Shown here: positions 5,060-41,746 of the stretch, piece after piece
Layout: the number at the start of each line of letters is the position of its first letter
Position numbering within the stretch: the first letter of the stretch is position 1
Source of the DNA: Magnetococcales bacterium
Lineage (GTDB): Bacteria > Pseudomonadota > Magnetococcia > Magnetococcales > DC0425bin3
Assembly: GCA_015231175.1 (NCBI GenBank)
Contig: JADGBZ010000025.1
Coordinates: 1 to 41,746 of the forward strand
Direction: 5' to 3'
DNA: 41,746 nucleotides
Program-made: the position numbers and the translations under genes
Notes under the pieces: generated by a model
What the model saw: only the letters and a program-made list of their open reading frames with translations
What the model was told of the DNA's origin: nothing
Databases searched by the model: none

Positions 5060-5204
5060 GTAACTATTTACCACCCGGCAACAAATCGGGGTCCAGGGGG
5101 CTGGCTCCCTGGCAGGGCCTAAGACGGAGTCCAGGTGGGGTTCGCGAAGCCCTGACATAGGCTTTCATGTCCAAGCTTTTCTTACAAGGGTGGTGAATAG
5201 TGAC
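5060..5204 (+). repeat. GTAAC-family MITE-like element, copy 1 (145 bp)
   Basis: The left end GTAACTATTTACCACCC and right end GGGTGGTGAATAGTGAC are near-perfect inverted complements. The body carries the common core (ggggtccagggggctggctccctgg, ending in gacataggctttcatgtcc). The internal CCAGGGC hairpin is decayed. No clear 8-bp target duplication remains (cagttgcg versus gcaattgg). The element sits immediately upstream of the duplicated 5' end of the DUF523 gene. Confidence 0.8.
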
Positions 5205-5210
5205 GCAATT

Positions 5211-5368
5211 GGAAGGATGATCATGATCCCATGCACCCTTGGCGTCATCGTCTGTCCTTTGGGGCAAAAGGTCCGCTACGATGGCAAACGGAAGAATGAC
5301 CATGCTCCCATACACTCTTGGCGTCAGCGCCTGTCTTTTGGGGCAAAAGGTTCGCTACGATGGCCGGC
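5211..5368 (+). repeat. 79-bp imperfect tandem duplication of the DUF523 gene 5' end
   Basis: 5211-5289 and 5290-5368 are two copies of the same segment, with about nine mismatches over the first 73 positions. Each copy holds a Shine-Dalgarno (GGAAGG or GGAAGA), an ATG (5223 or 5302) and the first codons of a DUF523 protein (LGV-x-C-x-LGQKVRYDG). The period of 79 is not a multiple of three. The first copy therefore opens a frame that slips out of phase in the second copy and stops at 5370-5372, overlapping the true start. Confidence 0.88.
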
Positions 5369-7917: not shown

Positions 7918-8063
7918 GTGACTGTTCATCACCCGGTAACGAATCGGGGTCCAGAGGGCTGGCTCCCTGGCAGGGCCTAAGACAGCGTCCTGGTGGGGTT
8001 CGGGGCGAAGCCCTGACAAAGGCTTTCATGTCTAAGCTTTTCCTGAGGGTGCTGGATGGTTAC
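7918..8063 (+). repeat. GTAAC-family MITE-like element, copy 3 (146 bp)
   Basis: The ends are GTGACTGTTCATCACCC and GGGTGCTGGATGGTTAC, a diverged inverted pair. The flanking octamers gtcaaggg (7910-7917) and gtcggggg (8064-8071) match at 6 of 8 positions and may be a decayed target duplication. It separates the divergent ars and arn operons and abuts the ars promoter. Confidence 0.75.
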
Positions 8064-11830: not shown

Positions 11831-11938
11831 ACCGGGATGGTCCAGGAAAGGCCATGCCCTTCCTGGCGAGGTTCTGGGCGAAATCCTGACAAAGGCTTTC
11901 ATGTCCGGACATTTCTGGCGAGGGTACCGAATCGTTAC
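11831..11938 (+). repeat. GTAAC-family element, degenerate copy 4
   Basis: A degenerate body (…cgaggttctgggcgaaatcctgacaaaggctttcatgtcc) ends in GGGTACCGAATCGTTAC at 11938. The left end is not recognisable. The terminal GTTAC overlaps the 3' end of the MNT gene on the other strand and provides its TAA stop. Confidence 0.65.
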
Positions 11939-12339
11939 AAATTTTCCTGCTCATGGGGAGTTTTCCACGCGAGGTCATCCCCATGTCGCCTCACCGACCG
12001 CCTGTCTTCACCTTCCGGTTTGGGTACGCCGTGTTTCTCCTGTTGGTAGATCGTCACTCCCACCCGTCGGATATGTTCCAGCAAGGGTGGATAACGGATG
12101 CCGTCGTAAGCTTTGACATCGAATGTATAGGGCATGGGAAGCTGATCCAGCGCCCCGGCCACAGCCTCGGCCTTGAGTTCATTCGCCACGCCTACCAAGG
12201 CCAAATCCACATCCGATTGGGGCCTGAAGTTGCCCTTGGCCCGGGAACCGAACACGATCACTGCGCGAATCTCCGGCACCCGCCGAAAAACGGCGTGCAG
12301 CAAGGCTATTTCCTGTTGGCTCAAGCCTGTGTCATTCAT
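11935..12339 (-). CDS. MNT nucleotidyltransferase (antitoxin of a HEPN/MNT pair)
   Basis: A 134-residue minimal nucleotidyltransferase with the full GS-x10-D-x-D motif (GSRAKGNFRPQSDVD), which binds Mg-ATP. In studied pairs such proteins silence the HEPN partner by adding AMP to a tyrosine. It starts 8 nt inside the end of the HEPN gene, so the two are translationally coupled. The last 30 or so residues (HGVPKPEGEDRRSVRRHGDDLAW…) look unlike a conserved fold. The stop TAA comes from the terminal GTTAC of the adjoining repeat (11934-11938), so the original C-terminus may have been altered by the insertion. Confidence 0.85.
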   Translation of the reverse strand: MNDTGLSQQEIALLHAVFRRVPEIRAVIVFGSRAKGNFRPQSDVDLALVGVANELKAEAVAGALDQLPMPYTFDVKAYDGIRYPPLLEHIRRVGVTIYQQEKHGVPKPEGEDRRSVRRHGDDLAWKTPHEQENL

Positions 12340-12751
12340 TTTTTACCAAGCGGATCAGGAAAAACTCGTGCAGCCGATCAAAAGCTGCAAAATACTGAGT
12401 GGTTATCTTTTTCAGTGCCTCGTCGAAGGTTCTGAAGTCGTATCGGTGAGACAGCAGATTCCTGTGATCCAACATGTCTATCCAAAGCTGTGCATCATTT
12501 AAAATGCCTGCGGAGAAGGCCGCCTTGATCACCTTGCGGGGCGTTGCCTCCCTGATGACCACTCCCTGTTCTTCCAGGTAATCTTTGAGGGTTTTCCATG
12601 CCAACTCAAAGGCAAACTCGAATCGTTGGACGGCGCCCTCCTTTTCCAGTTGCGAGAGTTGGGCCAGACCCTGTTCTTGTACTTCCCGCAACAGGATGAA
12701 AGTTCGGTCGAAGTTGTCAAAACGTTGTTTCCAACGGATATCGTCCTTCAT
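12332..12751 (-). CDS. HEPN-domain protein, HI0074 / nucleotidyltransferase substrate-binding family (toxin-like)
   Basis: A 139-residue all-helical HEPN protein of the HI0074 family. It carries R97-x4-H102-x-Y104 (RNLLSHRY), the RX4HXY motif of HEPN ribonuclease toxins, with the tyrosine that MNT partners adenylylate. FEFAFELAWKTLKDYLEEQG is the family hallmark. AGAGGAG lies 6 nt before the ATG. It is first in a two-gene operon with MNT. By analogy with characterised HEPN/MNT modules it would cleave RNA unless neutralised; that activity is not shown for most HI0074-type members. The pair is bracketed by two GTAAC elements (11831-11938 and 12810-12957). Confidence 0.88.
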   Translation of the reverse strand: MKDDIRWKQRFDNFDRTFILLREVQEQGLAQLSQLEKEGAVQRFEFAFELAWKTLKDYLEEQGVVIREATPRKVIKAAFSAGILNDAQLWIDMLDHRNLLSHRYDFRTFDEALKKITTQYFAAFDRLHEFFLIRLVKNE

Positions 12752-12809
12752 CGCCGCTCCTCTGGTATCACCGAATTCCCCAGATTTTCCCGAATCGCCC
12801 TTTCCCGCG

Positions 12810-12957
12810 GTAACTGTTCACCACCCGGCCACGAATCGGGGTCCAGGGGGCTGGCTCCCTGGCTTAGTCCAGGGCAGAGCCCTGGTGGGGTTCGGGGCGA
12901 AGCCCTGACAAAGGCTTTCATGTCCAGGCTTTTCTTGCAAGGGTGGTGAATAGTTAC
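12810..12957 (+). mobile_element. GTAAC-family MITE, intact copy with perfect 8-bp target duplication
   Basis: The best-preserved copy, 148 bp. The left end GTAACTGTTCACCACCC and right end GGGTGGTGAATAGTTAC are inverted complements at 16 of 17 positions. The octamer TTCCCGCG occurs directly on both sides (12802-12809 and 12958-12965). This is the signature of transposition. The interior has the perfect hairpin CCAGGGC (12869-12875), loop aga, GCCCTGG (12879-12885). It contains no coding capacity, so it must be moved by a transposase supplied from elsewhere. Confidence 0.88.
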
Positions 12958-12965
12958 TTCCCGCG

Positions 12966-31094: not shown

Positions 31095-31300
31095 GGGGGC
31101 GAAGCCCTGGCAAAGTCCGTCTCAAAAAGAACGATTGCAAGACTGGGATGGAGGTCCAGGAGGAAGGGCTGTGCCCTTCCTCCTGGTGGGGTTCGGGGCG
31201 AAGCCCTGATAAAAGCTTTCAAATCCAAGTTTTTTTTGCAAGGGTGGCGAAGCCCTGACAAGGGCTTTCAAATCCAGGTTTTTCTTGCAGGGGCGCAAAG
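31095..31300 (+). repeat. Composite repeat: module B hairpin plus two element tails
   Basis: A 14-bp perfect hairpin CCAGGAGGAAGGGC (31156-31169), loop tgt, GCCCTTCCTCCTGG (31173-31186), is followed by the shared ggggttcggggcgaagccctga block. Two copies of the tail (…gctttcaaatccaag…ttgcaaggg, then gggctttcaaatccagg…ttgcagggg) come next. A partial gcgaagccctggcaaag lies at 31099-31115. It has no GTAAC tips. Confidence 0.75.
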
Positions 31301-38070: not shown

Positions 38071-38282
38071 GGAACTATTCACCACCTGGCAACGAATCGG
38101 GGTCCAGGGGGCTGGCTCCCTGGCTTGGTCCAGGGCAGCGCCCTGGTGGGGTTCGGGGCGAAGCCCTGATAAAGGCTTCCCTATCCAGGCTTTTCTTGAA
38201 AGGGTACTGAAAAGGGTGCTGAAAAGGGTGCTGAATGGTTACCCCAATCCGGGCTTTTCTTGCAAGGGTGCTGAATGGTTAC
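38071..38282 (+). mobile_element. GTAAC-family MITE, 212-bp copy with duplicated right end and target duplication
   Basis: The left end is GGAACTATTCACCACCT and the right end GGGTGCTGAATGGTTAC. Flanking octamers AATTTTCA (38063-38070) and AATTTTCG (38283-38290) match at 7 of 8, as expected for an 8-bp target duplication. The interior has an intact CCAGGGC-agc-GCCCTGG hairpin. The right end occurs twice (ending at 38242 and 38282), with an aaagggt(g/a)ctg triplet run just before the first, so the element has internal end duplications. Confidence 0.85.
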
Positions 38283-38534: not shown

Positions 38535-38671
38535 TTTGGAATTGGGGTCCAGAGGGTTGGCTCCCTTGCGGGTCAAGGGCAGCGCCCTTACGGGGTCCGG
38601 GGCGGAGCCCCGTTTTGTTTTTGTACGCCCCCCTTCTCCCAGGCCTTTTTTGCGCTGTTTGCAAAAAAGGC
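38535..38671 (+). repeat. Module C repeat (plus copy)
   Basis: The core (ggggtccagagggttggctccc), the hairpin CAAGGGC-agc-GCCCTT (38574-38589), the ggggtccggggcggagccccg block and the GGCCTTTTTTGC/GCAAAAAAGGCC stem (about 38641-38671) occur in the same order as the reverse copy at 35881-36040. Together they form inverted repeats around the helicase gene. Confidence 0.82.
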
Positions 38672-38749
38672 CCAAGATGCGAACACATTGCAGATTTTGC
38701 GAAAATAATCGTAAAAGATAATGGTCCGTACTTTCCGCTGGCTTTTTTT

Positions 38750-39199
38750 GGGGCGCTGCCCCAAACCCCGCCAGGAGGAAGGGCGCAGCCCTTCCTCCTG
38801 GACCTCCATCCCAGTCTTTTAAACGATTTTTTTTGGGGCGCTGCCCCAAACCCCGCCAGGAGGAAGGGCGCAGCCCTTCCTCCTGGACCTCCATCCCAGT
38901 TTTTTGGACGTTTTTTTGGGGCTCCGCCCCAAACCCCGCCAGGAGGAAGGGCGCAGCCCTTCCTCCTGGACCTCCATCCCAGTTTTTTGGACGTTTTTTT
39001 GGGGCTCCGCCCCAAACCCCGCCAGGAGGAAGGGCGCAGCCCTTCCTCCTGGACCTCCATCCCAGTTTTTTGGACGTTTTTTCGGGGCTCTGCCCCGGAC
39101 CCCGCCAGGAGGAAGGGCGCAGCCCTTCCTCCTGGACCTCCATCCCAGTTTTTTAATCGTTTTTTCGGGGCTCTGCCCTTCCTCCTGAACCTCCATCCC
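38750..39199 (+). repeat. Module B tandem array: five full 83-85 bp units plus a truncated sixth
   Basis: Units begin (gggg-c) at 38750, 38835, 38918, 39001, 39084 and 39167. The first two periods are 85 and 83, the rest exactly 83. Each full unit holds GGGGC…GCCCC, then the 14-bp stem CCAGGAGGAAGGGC/GCCCTTCCTCCTGG with loop gca (first unit 38771-38801), then gacctccatcccag and a T-rich spacer. The sixth unit has lost the hairpin and ends just before the comEC ribosome site. The array has no stop codon in the comEC frame. Confidence 0.93.
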
Positions 39200-39211
39200 G
39201 ACGAGGATCAC

Positions 39212-41521
39212 ATGGGGCTGTTGGTCATGGCAATGATCGGGGGGATCATCCTGTGTACCCACACCCCCCTGGCACAAAATGATCTGCATTGGCTCCAAGT
39301 CCTCATCGGCCTGGCCACCTGGCTGACCTGGCTGGGTTCACCGGCAGGCCGCACCCGCTGGTTGAGGCTCCTCGGCGGGCTTTTTCTGGGGGTCGTGGCG
39401 GCCAACTGGGAAGACTGGCAGGCCTGCAACCCACCCCTGCTGCTGCCCGAAGGGAAAAAAGGCAAGGAATTTACCGCCATGGTGGTCGATCGCAATGACC
39501 GCGACGACTCGATCCAACTGATCCTGGAGGATTTTGTCTGGCAGCCGGAACAAACAGAGTTTGCCGGGCAAATCCAGTTGTCCATTTATGGCCACGACGC
39601 CGACGCCGAACCAGGAGATCGGATCGCCGGCAAGGCCGTGCTCCACCCCGTCGAGGATTATCGGGTGCCAGGCGTATTCTCCTACGCCGACATGCTGCGG
39701 CGGCAAGGGGTGAAGGCCAACGGCTCCGCCCGGGATCCGCCCCAGGTGGTGGAACAAACGTCCCAGTGGCGCATCAATCGTTTGCGCCAACGGATTTCGG
39801 CCTGGGTGCAGCGCCACATCGCGCCCCGGCAGCAGGGCCTGGTTGAAGGGATTCTGGTGGGCAAGCGCGGGCGTATCACGGCGGCCCAAAACGAAAACAT
39901 GCGTAGCGCCGGCCTGATCCACCTGGTGGCCATCTCGGGTTCCAATCTGGGCCTGGTGGCCGGGTGGGCGTTTTTGTTCTTCCGCCGGCTGTTGGTCATG
40001 CTGACGCCGGTTTCACGACGCTGGGATGTGAAACGGTTGGCGGCGTTGGCGGCCATGCTCTTCATGCTGGGCTATGCCTCCCTGGCGGGATGGTCCGTGG
40101 CCACGCAAAGGGCAGCCATCATGATCACCCTGTATCTGCTCTCCGTCGCCGTGGAGCGGGGCAACCAGATGTGGCGCGCCCTGGGCATGTCGGCCATATT
40201 GATTTTATTTTTTCAACCCAATCAATTGTTTCAGGCTGGATTTCAACTCTCGTTTCTCGCCGTGGCCACCCTGATCGCCCTGGGCGACATGGATTTTGCC
40301 CCCGACTGGCGGGGCCGCATGCGGGCCATGTCGCTCTCCACGATCACCATTGGCGTCGTGCTGACCCCGGTGACCGCCTACCATTTTCATCAGGGATCGC
40401 CCTACAGCATTCTGGCCAATATTCCTGCCATTCCCTGGGTGGGCATCGTCTCCGTGCCCCTGGGCATGATCGGCCTCATGGTGTTGCCCTGGTCGGAAAC
40501 ATGGGGTGGCGTCGTTCTCTCCCTCATGGGGTGGAGCCTGGAGATTTTTGATCGATGGGCCGCCTGGATCAGCCATCTGCCGGGGGCTTGGACACGTTTT
40601 CCCGGTCCCACGTTGCCGGGTTTTGCCCTCATGGTGCTGGCGGGGGTGGGATGGCTCGCCTGGCGGCGCTTTTGGCCCCGGGCGGCTTGCCTTTGTGTGG
40701 CCGCCTGTGCCTGGTTCTGGCCCCATCCCGCTCCGCCCCTGGGATATCTGCAACTCTCCGTCCTGGATGTGCGGCAGGGGCAAAGTGTGTTGTTGCACGC
40801 GCCGACGGGGGATTGGTCGGTGATCGATGCGGGGGGGCCGGTCTCCCCTCGTTTCAATATTGGCGAGAGCGTGATTTCGGCCAACCTGTGGTATCAGGGG
40901 GTGGGCAAATTGGCACGCATCGTGTTGAGTCACCCGGACCTGGACCATATCTCCGGCGCTGCACAACTCCTGCGCAATTTTCCCACCGGGGAACTCTGGT
41001 TGGGGTTCTTTCCACAGGAGGAGGAGAGCCATGCCCAGTACAAACAAATCATCGCCATGGCCCAGCGGCAGGGGACGCTCATCCGGCGTTTTCAGGATGG
41101 GACAACGATCCATGCCGAGGGGTTGGATTTTCACATTCTGCCCCCGTTTCCGTTGCGGGGAAAAGAGAATGATCGCTCCCTGGTTTTGGAGGTGACCCAT
41201 GACACCCGGCGTTTTTTATTTCCGGGGGATGTGCAGCGCACCGGGGAGCGTTGGTTGGCCAGGAGCGGTCAATTGGCGCCGGTGACGCTGGTGGTGGCGC
41301 CCCACCATGGCAGTGCTGGTTCCAGCAGCCCGATTTTTGTTCAGGCGCTTCATCCCGAGCATGTGGTTTTCAGCGTAGGGGCGAGGAATCGTTATGGCTT
41401 TCCCAAGCCGGCCAGTGTGGCGCGGTGGGCGGCCAGTGGGGCCAGGTTGTGGCGGACGGACCAGGATGGAACGGTTATGTTTCGTTCCGATGGTCATCAT
41501 CTTGAGCGCGTAGGTGACTGA
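39212..41521 (+). CDS. comEC: ComEC/Rec2 family DNA-uptake channel
   Basis: A 769-residue inner-membrane protein thought to form the pore for single-stranded DNA during natural transformation. The order is complete: N-terminal TMs, a DUF4131-like soluble region (FTAMVVDRNDRDDSIQLILEDF), and the competence core (GLVEGILVGKRGRI; GLIHLVAISGSNLGLVAG; LAGWSVATQRAAIM; FQAGFQLSFLAV). A C-terminal metallo-beta-lactamase domain follows (SVLDVRQGQSVLL; LSHPDLDHISG; FPGDVQ; APHHGS). ATG 39212 is chosen for GAGG 5 nt upstream. The frame stays open for another 705 nt upstream through the repeat array, but that part is repeat translation and should not be annotated. Confidence 0.92.
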   Translation: MGLLVMAMIGGIILCTHTPLAQNDLHWLQVLIGLATWLTWLGSPAGRTRWLRLLGGLFLGVVAANWEDWQACNPPLLLPEGKKGKEFTAMVVDRNDRDDSIQLILEDFVWQPEQTEFAGQIQLSIYGHDADAEPGDRIAGKAVLHPVEDYRVPGVFSYADMLRRQGVKANGSARDPPQVVEQTSQWRINRLRQRISAWVQRHIAPRQQGLVEGILVGKRGRITAAQNENMRSAGLIHLVAISGSNLGLVAGWAFLFFRRLLVMLTPVSRRWDVKRLAALAAMLFMLGYASLAGWSVATQRAAIMITLYLLSVAVERGNQMWRALGMSAILILFFQPNQLFQAGFQLSFLAVATLIALGDMDFAPDWRGRMRAMSLSTITIGVVLTPVTAYHFHQGSPYSILANIPAIPWVGIVSVPLGMIGLMVLPWSETWGGVVLSLMGWSLEIFDRWAAWISHLPGAWTRFPGPTLPGFALMVLAGVGWLAWRRFWPRAACLCVAACAWFWPHPAPPLGYLQLSVLDVRQGQSVLLHAPTGDWSVIDAGGPVSPRFNIGESVISANLWYQGVGKLARIVLSHPDLDHISGAAQLLRNFPTGELWLGFFPQEEESHAQYKQIIAMAQRQGTLIRRFQDGTTIHAEGLDFHILPPFPLRGKENDRSLVLEVTHDTRRFLFPGDVQRTGERWLARSGQLAPVTLVVAPHHGSAGSSSPIFVQALHPEHVVFSVGARNRYGFPKPASVARWAASGARLWRTDQDGTVMFRSDGHHLERVGD

Positions 41522-41746
41522 AGCGAAAAAAAACGATTGAAAAACTGGAATGGAGGTCCAGGAGGAAGGGCTGTGCCCTTCCTCCTGGTGGGTTCGGGGC
41601 GAAGCCCTGACAAAGGCTTTCATATCCAACAAAGGCTTTCATATCCAACAAAGGCTTTCATATCCAAGATTTTCGCGAAATGGGGTCCAGGGGGCTGGCT
41701 CCCTTGCGGGTCAAGGGCAGCGCCCTTGCGGGTCAAGGGCAGCGCC
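41522..41746 (+). repeat. Composite repeat region downstream of comEC
   Basis: It contains a module B hairpin (tccaggaggaagggctgtgcccttcctcctgg), the gttcggggcgaagccctga block, a 19-bp unit (acaaaggctttcatatcca) present three times in tandem at 41610-41666, and a module C core. The perfect hairpin CAAGGGC (41712-41718), loop agc, GCCCTTG (41722-41728) repeats at the window edge. The sequence is cut by the end of the window. Confidence 0.85.

Follow-up and report, generated by a model that had tools for sequence, protein, structure and literature searches.

The 148-bp module A is an IS66-family MITE carrying three tandem hairpins, and hairpins of this type also form GGGT-linked arrays, a modular extragenic repeat with head, middle and end hairpins. 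The arms of these hairpins change in sequence and keep their pairing. With little more than even confidence, we read the sequence patterns as maintenance of the hairpin units through folded single-stranded DNA, the array being carried as cargo of an IS66-type MITE. The window analysed here (41,746 nucleotides) is the entire contig C25 of the 3.81-Mb genome of a Magnetococcales bacterium, assembled in 175 contigs (G000).

The stems quoted for modules A, B and C in a preliminary description were all found at the positions given there. Module A comprises, on the plus strand, the hairpin U1 (CCAGGGGGCTGGCTCCCTGG, 12843-12862), the covarying middle unit U2 (CCAGGGC-AGA-GCCCTGG, 12869-12885) and U3 (CGGGGC-GAA-GCCCTG with one G·T pair, 12893-12907). 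The GC-GAA-GC unit presumably matches an unusually stable DNA mini-hairpin, which we take as a lead only. The module B hairpin has a 14-bp stem (CCAGGAGGAAGGGC-TGT-GCCCTTCCTCCTGG, 31156-31186, plus strand); it is present again at 41558-41588 (plus strand), and an identical stem with the loop GCA (read on the plus strand) is located at 38771-38801. Five tandem 83-bp copies of module B with U3-type hairpins TTGGGGC/GCCCCAA and CGGGGC/GCCCCG occupy 38745-39242 on the minus strand. These five copies lie in frame upstream of a ComEC-like gene (PF03772), so that 38507 is probably too early as the start of the called ORF. For module C, the hairpin CAAGGGC-AGC-GCCCTTG (41712-41728, plus strand) precedes a second C unit, which the contig end truncates. 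The concerted change of both arms described before holds overall but is not absolute, since one terminal pair is broken in the sister C copy CAAGGGC-AGC-GCCCTTA (38574-38590, plus strand). Likewise, the flanking block thought to be common to the modules is present at this sister copy (38574-38612) and absent beside the C unit at 41712-41728. DNA folding gave z-scores of -2.9 for 12841-12905 and -7.3 for 31150-31210; the hairpins of the window are not due to chance.

Module A (12810-12957, plus strand) is bounded by 17-bp terminal inverted repeats (TIRs), GTAACTGTTCACCACCC on the left (12810-12826, plus strand) and GGGTGGTGAATAGTTAC on the right (12941-12957, minus strand), and by an 8-bp target site duplication (TSD), TTCCCGCG, whose copies at 12802-12809 and 12958-12965 are identical in 8/8 positions. 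The preliminary description was right that pairing is kept, but overlooked this transposable nature of module A. The window holds three further copies on the plus strand: a diverged one with TIRs and no longer a TSD (5060-5204), one whose U2 belongs to an imperfect CTAAGAC/GTCCTGG subfamily (7918-8063), and one of 212 bp with a 7/8 TSD (38071-38282). Copies of the MITE measure 147-148 bp, with GTAACTATTCACCACCC and its complement at the ends. In the genome, 407 sites match this 17-mer at two mismatches or fewer, against 0 for its reversed control. A TSD of at least 7/8 was detected in 14 of 38 sampled elements (expected, 0.4). Most of the hairpins of this genome lie within the MITE, and that the array is MITE cargo here explains its roughly 200 dispersed copies. 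At the site of module A, flanking homology to G001 and G002 stops at about position 12765, before the insertion.

In relatives, complete IS66-family elements share the TIRs of module A. A PF03050 transposase lies between GTAACTATTCASCACCY ends in a 1740-bp element of G016 (L263) and in a 1722-bp element of G008 (L264), with 8-bp duplications GAAGCAGA and GTCTTTGC, respectively; IS66 elements with 8-bp repeats have been reported (PMC3281130). The IS66 genes of the window's own genome were rejected as partner of the MITE, as its two PF03050 matches are without matching ends on both sides; at this number of contigs, a full-length partner could be missing as a collapsed copy, and a transposase encoded in the same genome is usual for such a MITE, though not a strict requirement. 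Some further observations concern the surroundings of MITE copies. Directly beside the insertion of module A, a nucleotidyltransferase (PF18765/PF01909) and a substrate-binding partner (PF08780) form an MNT/HI0074-type pair (11935-12751). Right after the copy at 5060-5204, a 79-bp direct duplication with 86% identity is located at an ORF start (5205-5362). A copy 98% identical to that of the window was found in another family of the order (L018, G039:C109:2971-3090), which is either a recent transfer or an assembly binning error.

The hairpin arrays extend beyond the MITE. In relatives, the hairpins are present without MITE ends, and MITEs with the same ends can hold other arrays, a module B-type array in G002 (L250, flanks ATTTTTTC) and a different hairpin array in G011 (L247). 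The units follow a grammar: a GGGT or GGGGT linker precedes each hairpin, and a head U1 is followed by a variable number of U2 and an end U3. Arrays in G020 are composed of U1, 1-4 middle units and a TTG/CTG end unit; in the multi-phylum set, arrays contain 2-6 units. Using a free-loop pattern, the U2-U3 tandem was detected in Magnetococcales records and, among the matches listed, in Acetobacteraceae, Rhodospirillales, Desulfovibrionaceae, Synergistaceae, Nitrosovibrio, Ruminococcus, other Clostridia, Streptomyces, Phytomonospora and Polyangium, so that these are at least the taxa concerned, several of the records being metagenome bins. The stem measures 7 bp in 157 of 246 units. In G020, the loops are purine-purine-A/C (RRA/RRC) in 79/79 pattern units, and RRA and RRC together account for 86 of about 125 loops in other phyla. 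All 79 units of G020 have a C or T directly 3′ of the stem and a T-A pair is completed in none, so the stem is never lengthened there. At four places in G013 (C1: 316989-318213, 442935-443655, 820987-822075 and 4328295-4329372), hairpin units recur every ~350 bp, which suggests longer tandem repeats with one hairpin each.

The covariation test proposed in the preliminary description was strongly positive. The pattern used for this purpose (GGGTNNNGGGCNNNGCCCNNNYGGG) prescribes the linker and inner stem and leaves the three outer pairs and the loop free. It has 291 matches in G020, 86 in the window's genome, 69 in G001, 37 in G036 and 31 in G013; its reversed control matched 0 times in every genome searched, a control which is uninformative for arm pairing, since a palindrome read backwards can pair as well. 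Outside the order, six matches were found in about 250 Pseudomonadota genomes, one with paired and five with unpaired outer arms, which shows that a match to the pattern does not require paired arms. Among 49 distinct units of the order and beyond, chosen by linker and inner stem only, 98.3% of the cells are paired, with a covariation score of 0.415 compared to 0.094 for shuffled and at most 0.112 for slid partners; the shuffles ignore relatedness. Cells changed on both sides number 50, compared to 11.4 after shuffling. In the G020 sample, 77 of 79 units are fully paired despite ten outer-arm types (shuffled mean 18.1, maximum 29), and the arm types each occur with several loops. At one homologous middle position of the G020 arrays we detected TGA/TCA, TAA/TTA, CAA/TTG, TCA/TGA and GTC/GAC. 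For module B, 98.1% of the cells are paired, with four matched double-change types and six G·T wobbles versus one A·C. Hybrid units are rare, with 2/79 in G020 and ~7/~95 in a second set. An example is a G020 unit with a CGA arm, an AAC loop and a TGG arm: in neighbouring copies of its locus, units of the CGA-GGC and CCA-AAC types are adjacent, and this hybrid would be a crossover product of the two, by which recombination may create mismatched stems.

Inside the MITE, the middle stem behaves differently. Over 76 copies of this genome, 85% of its cells are paired versus 76% after shuffling, with 46 mismatched, 33 wobble and 39 compensated cells; 34 of the 39 compensated cells reflect one subfamily difference, GGGC/GCCC versus GGAC/GTCC. 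Furthermore, the imperfect CTAAGAC/GTCCTGG subfamily has multiplied to about 10 copies, and a perfect middle stem is thus not needed for mobility of the MITE. Given this decay and multiplication, the compensation belongs to the array class and not to MITE mobility. Independent mutation of the two arms, named at the outset as evidence against a conserved hairpin, is found in part within the MITE copies of this genome. Module B is better kept than the MITE middle stem. The imperfect middle stems and the imperfect subfamily count against our preferred explanation.

We infer the mechanism that keeps the arms matched as follows. In its single-stranded state, the G-rich strand would fold, probably as DNA and either at the replication fork or within a cruciform. 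A putative factor of the host or of a mobile element would recognise the folded unit, or the fold itself would allow it to persist. Point mutation or recombination of neighbouring units would give rise to units with broken stems, which would rarely multiply, and new arm types would for that reason spread only as matched pairs. Inside the MITE, the middle stem may no longer be needed for mobility and would decay.

Stem covariation is usually taken as a sign of structured RNA; in the present case, it is seen in dispersed DNA repeats that show no transcription bias. A transcribed RNA element selected for base pairing, such as a 3′-end stabiliser, terminator or attenuator, appears quite unlikely to us. 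It would fit the position of arrays near the 3′ ends of genes, as gaps holding arrays are convergent in 86 and divergent in 23 cases, as well as the T tracts into which some U3 units run (e.g. 38591-38620) and the preference of module B for G·T wobbles. However, the orientation to transcription is balanced (88 same, 81 opposite), which weakens the hint at structured RNA in the preliminary description, and in G020 it leans antisense (19 versus 36); arrays ending in TTTT are few, and an Rfam search of the window gave no match at gathering score. Only ~20% of the arrays lie in called ORFs, with 83% of the DNA being coding, fractions that are approximate as the gene calls stem from a simple codon-score caller. 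The intergenic position, the avoidance of divergent gaps and the lack of a consistent strand bias favour a role as folded single-stranded DNA over structured RNA. Likewise, recognition of folded single-stranded DNA fits better than RNA with loops whose class is constant on one strand while transcription bias is absent. The weak replication-strand bias in G020 (49 versus 30 on one replichore) counts against this explanation, as does the fact that we found no factor recognising the folded strand. Template switching at imperfect palindromes, which would copy one arm onto the other at replication without selection for structure, is an unlikely alternative. In E. coli, where template switching is known, inverted repeats become more perfect through quasipalindrome mutations (PMC7202029), and the process accounts for double changes without intermediates and for the absent transcription bias. 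However, it should extend stems past 7 bp and leave loops free, contrary to the T-A pairs never completed and the invariable RRA/RRC loops of G020, and many uncorrected one-armed changes remain in the MITE copies of this genome.

Covariation without any maintenance, as mere inheritance of a few hairpin types which arose independently and were copied around, is very unlikely. Although the arm types in G020 recur in a preferred order (GCA-CGA-CCA-x-end) and our shuffles do not consider relatedness, this reading is opposed by five matched arm types at one position of homologous arrays, by the combination of arm types with several loops and by the rarity of hybrids. We give just as little credence to REP-like elements moved by a RAYT (Y1 HUH transposase). 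The layout of tag plus hairpin resembles REPs, which carry GTAG/GTGG tags (PMC2817692), and Y1 transposases exist in many genomes of the order. However, G002, G004 and G044 (96-100% complete) have related repeats and no Y1 (PF01797) match, whereas such repeats are absent from G023 and G052 despite several Y1 genes in each. The foot tag is GGGT/GGGGT, and the sole Y1 gene of the window's genome sits in an ORF of its own. A RAYT partner was rejected, since presence or absence of Y1 does not track the repeats across genomes. On contig C36 of this genome, a RAYT-like Y1 transposase domain (PF01797) lies in frame within a DUF1156/methyltransferase ORF (L033:6994-10707), with GARASRP peptides resembling translated REP hairpins on its flanks, as if it had been inserted in frame into the gene.

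More broadly, we tentatively propose, at clearly less than even confidence, that the GGGT arrays with matched free outer arms and RRA/RRC triloops may be one widespread, RAYT-independent extragenic class in several phyla, which would be maintained because the folded single DNA strand is recognised, and which IS66-type MITEs would have taken up repeatedly. No matching element was named in publications on stem-loop families, on REP tags or on Magnetofaba, and we found no description of the same unit grammar recurring across phyla in the literature searched, most subscription journals excluded. The arrays offer a natural test system for telling apart two possible causes of matched arms, template switching and selection acting on folded DNA.

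Among known repeat systems, the arrays are close in layout to the BOX elements of Streptococcus pneumoniae (boxA-boxB(n)-boxC; PMC3049150). Both are polar modular repeats with distinct first and last modules and variable middle stem-loops, extragenic and dispersed in many copies; the G020 arrays have end modules of their own and middle modules that vary in number, and arrays overall contain 2-6 units. In contrast to BOX, the arrays, known from DNA alone and compared by layout, have GC-rich 22-bp units, a GGGT linker and covarying arms, and occur in several phyla. With REP/BIME elements they share a short tag followed by a GC-rich hairpin and an extragenic, clustered occurrence, but the tag is GGGT instead of GTAG/GTGG, the units are in tandem in the same orientation and not alternating, and the RAYT association is absent. 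Quasipalindrome template switching as in E. coli would likewise renew both arms at once, but leaves the fixed stem length and the loop class unexplained. Module A agrees with IS66-family MITEs in TIRs starting with GTAA, an 8-bp TSD, a short non-coding body and a TIR shared with full-length IS66-family elements of relatives. It differs from them in that a full-length partner was not found in the assembly of its own genome and in that its body is a hairpin array which is also present outside the MITE.
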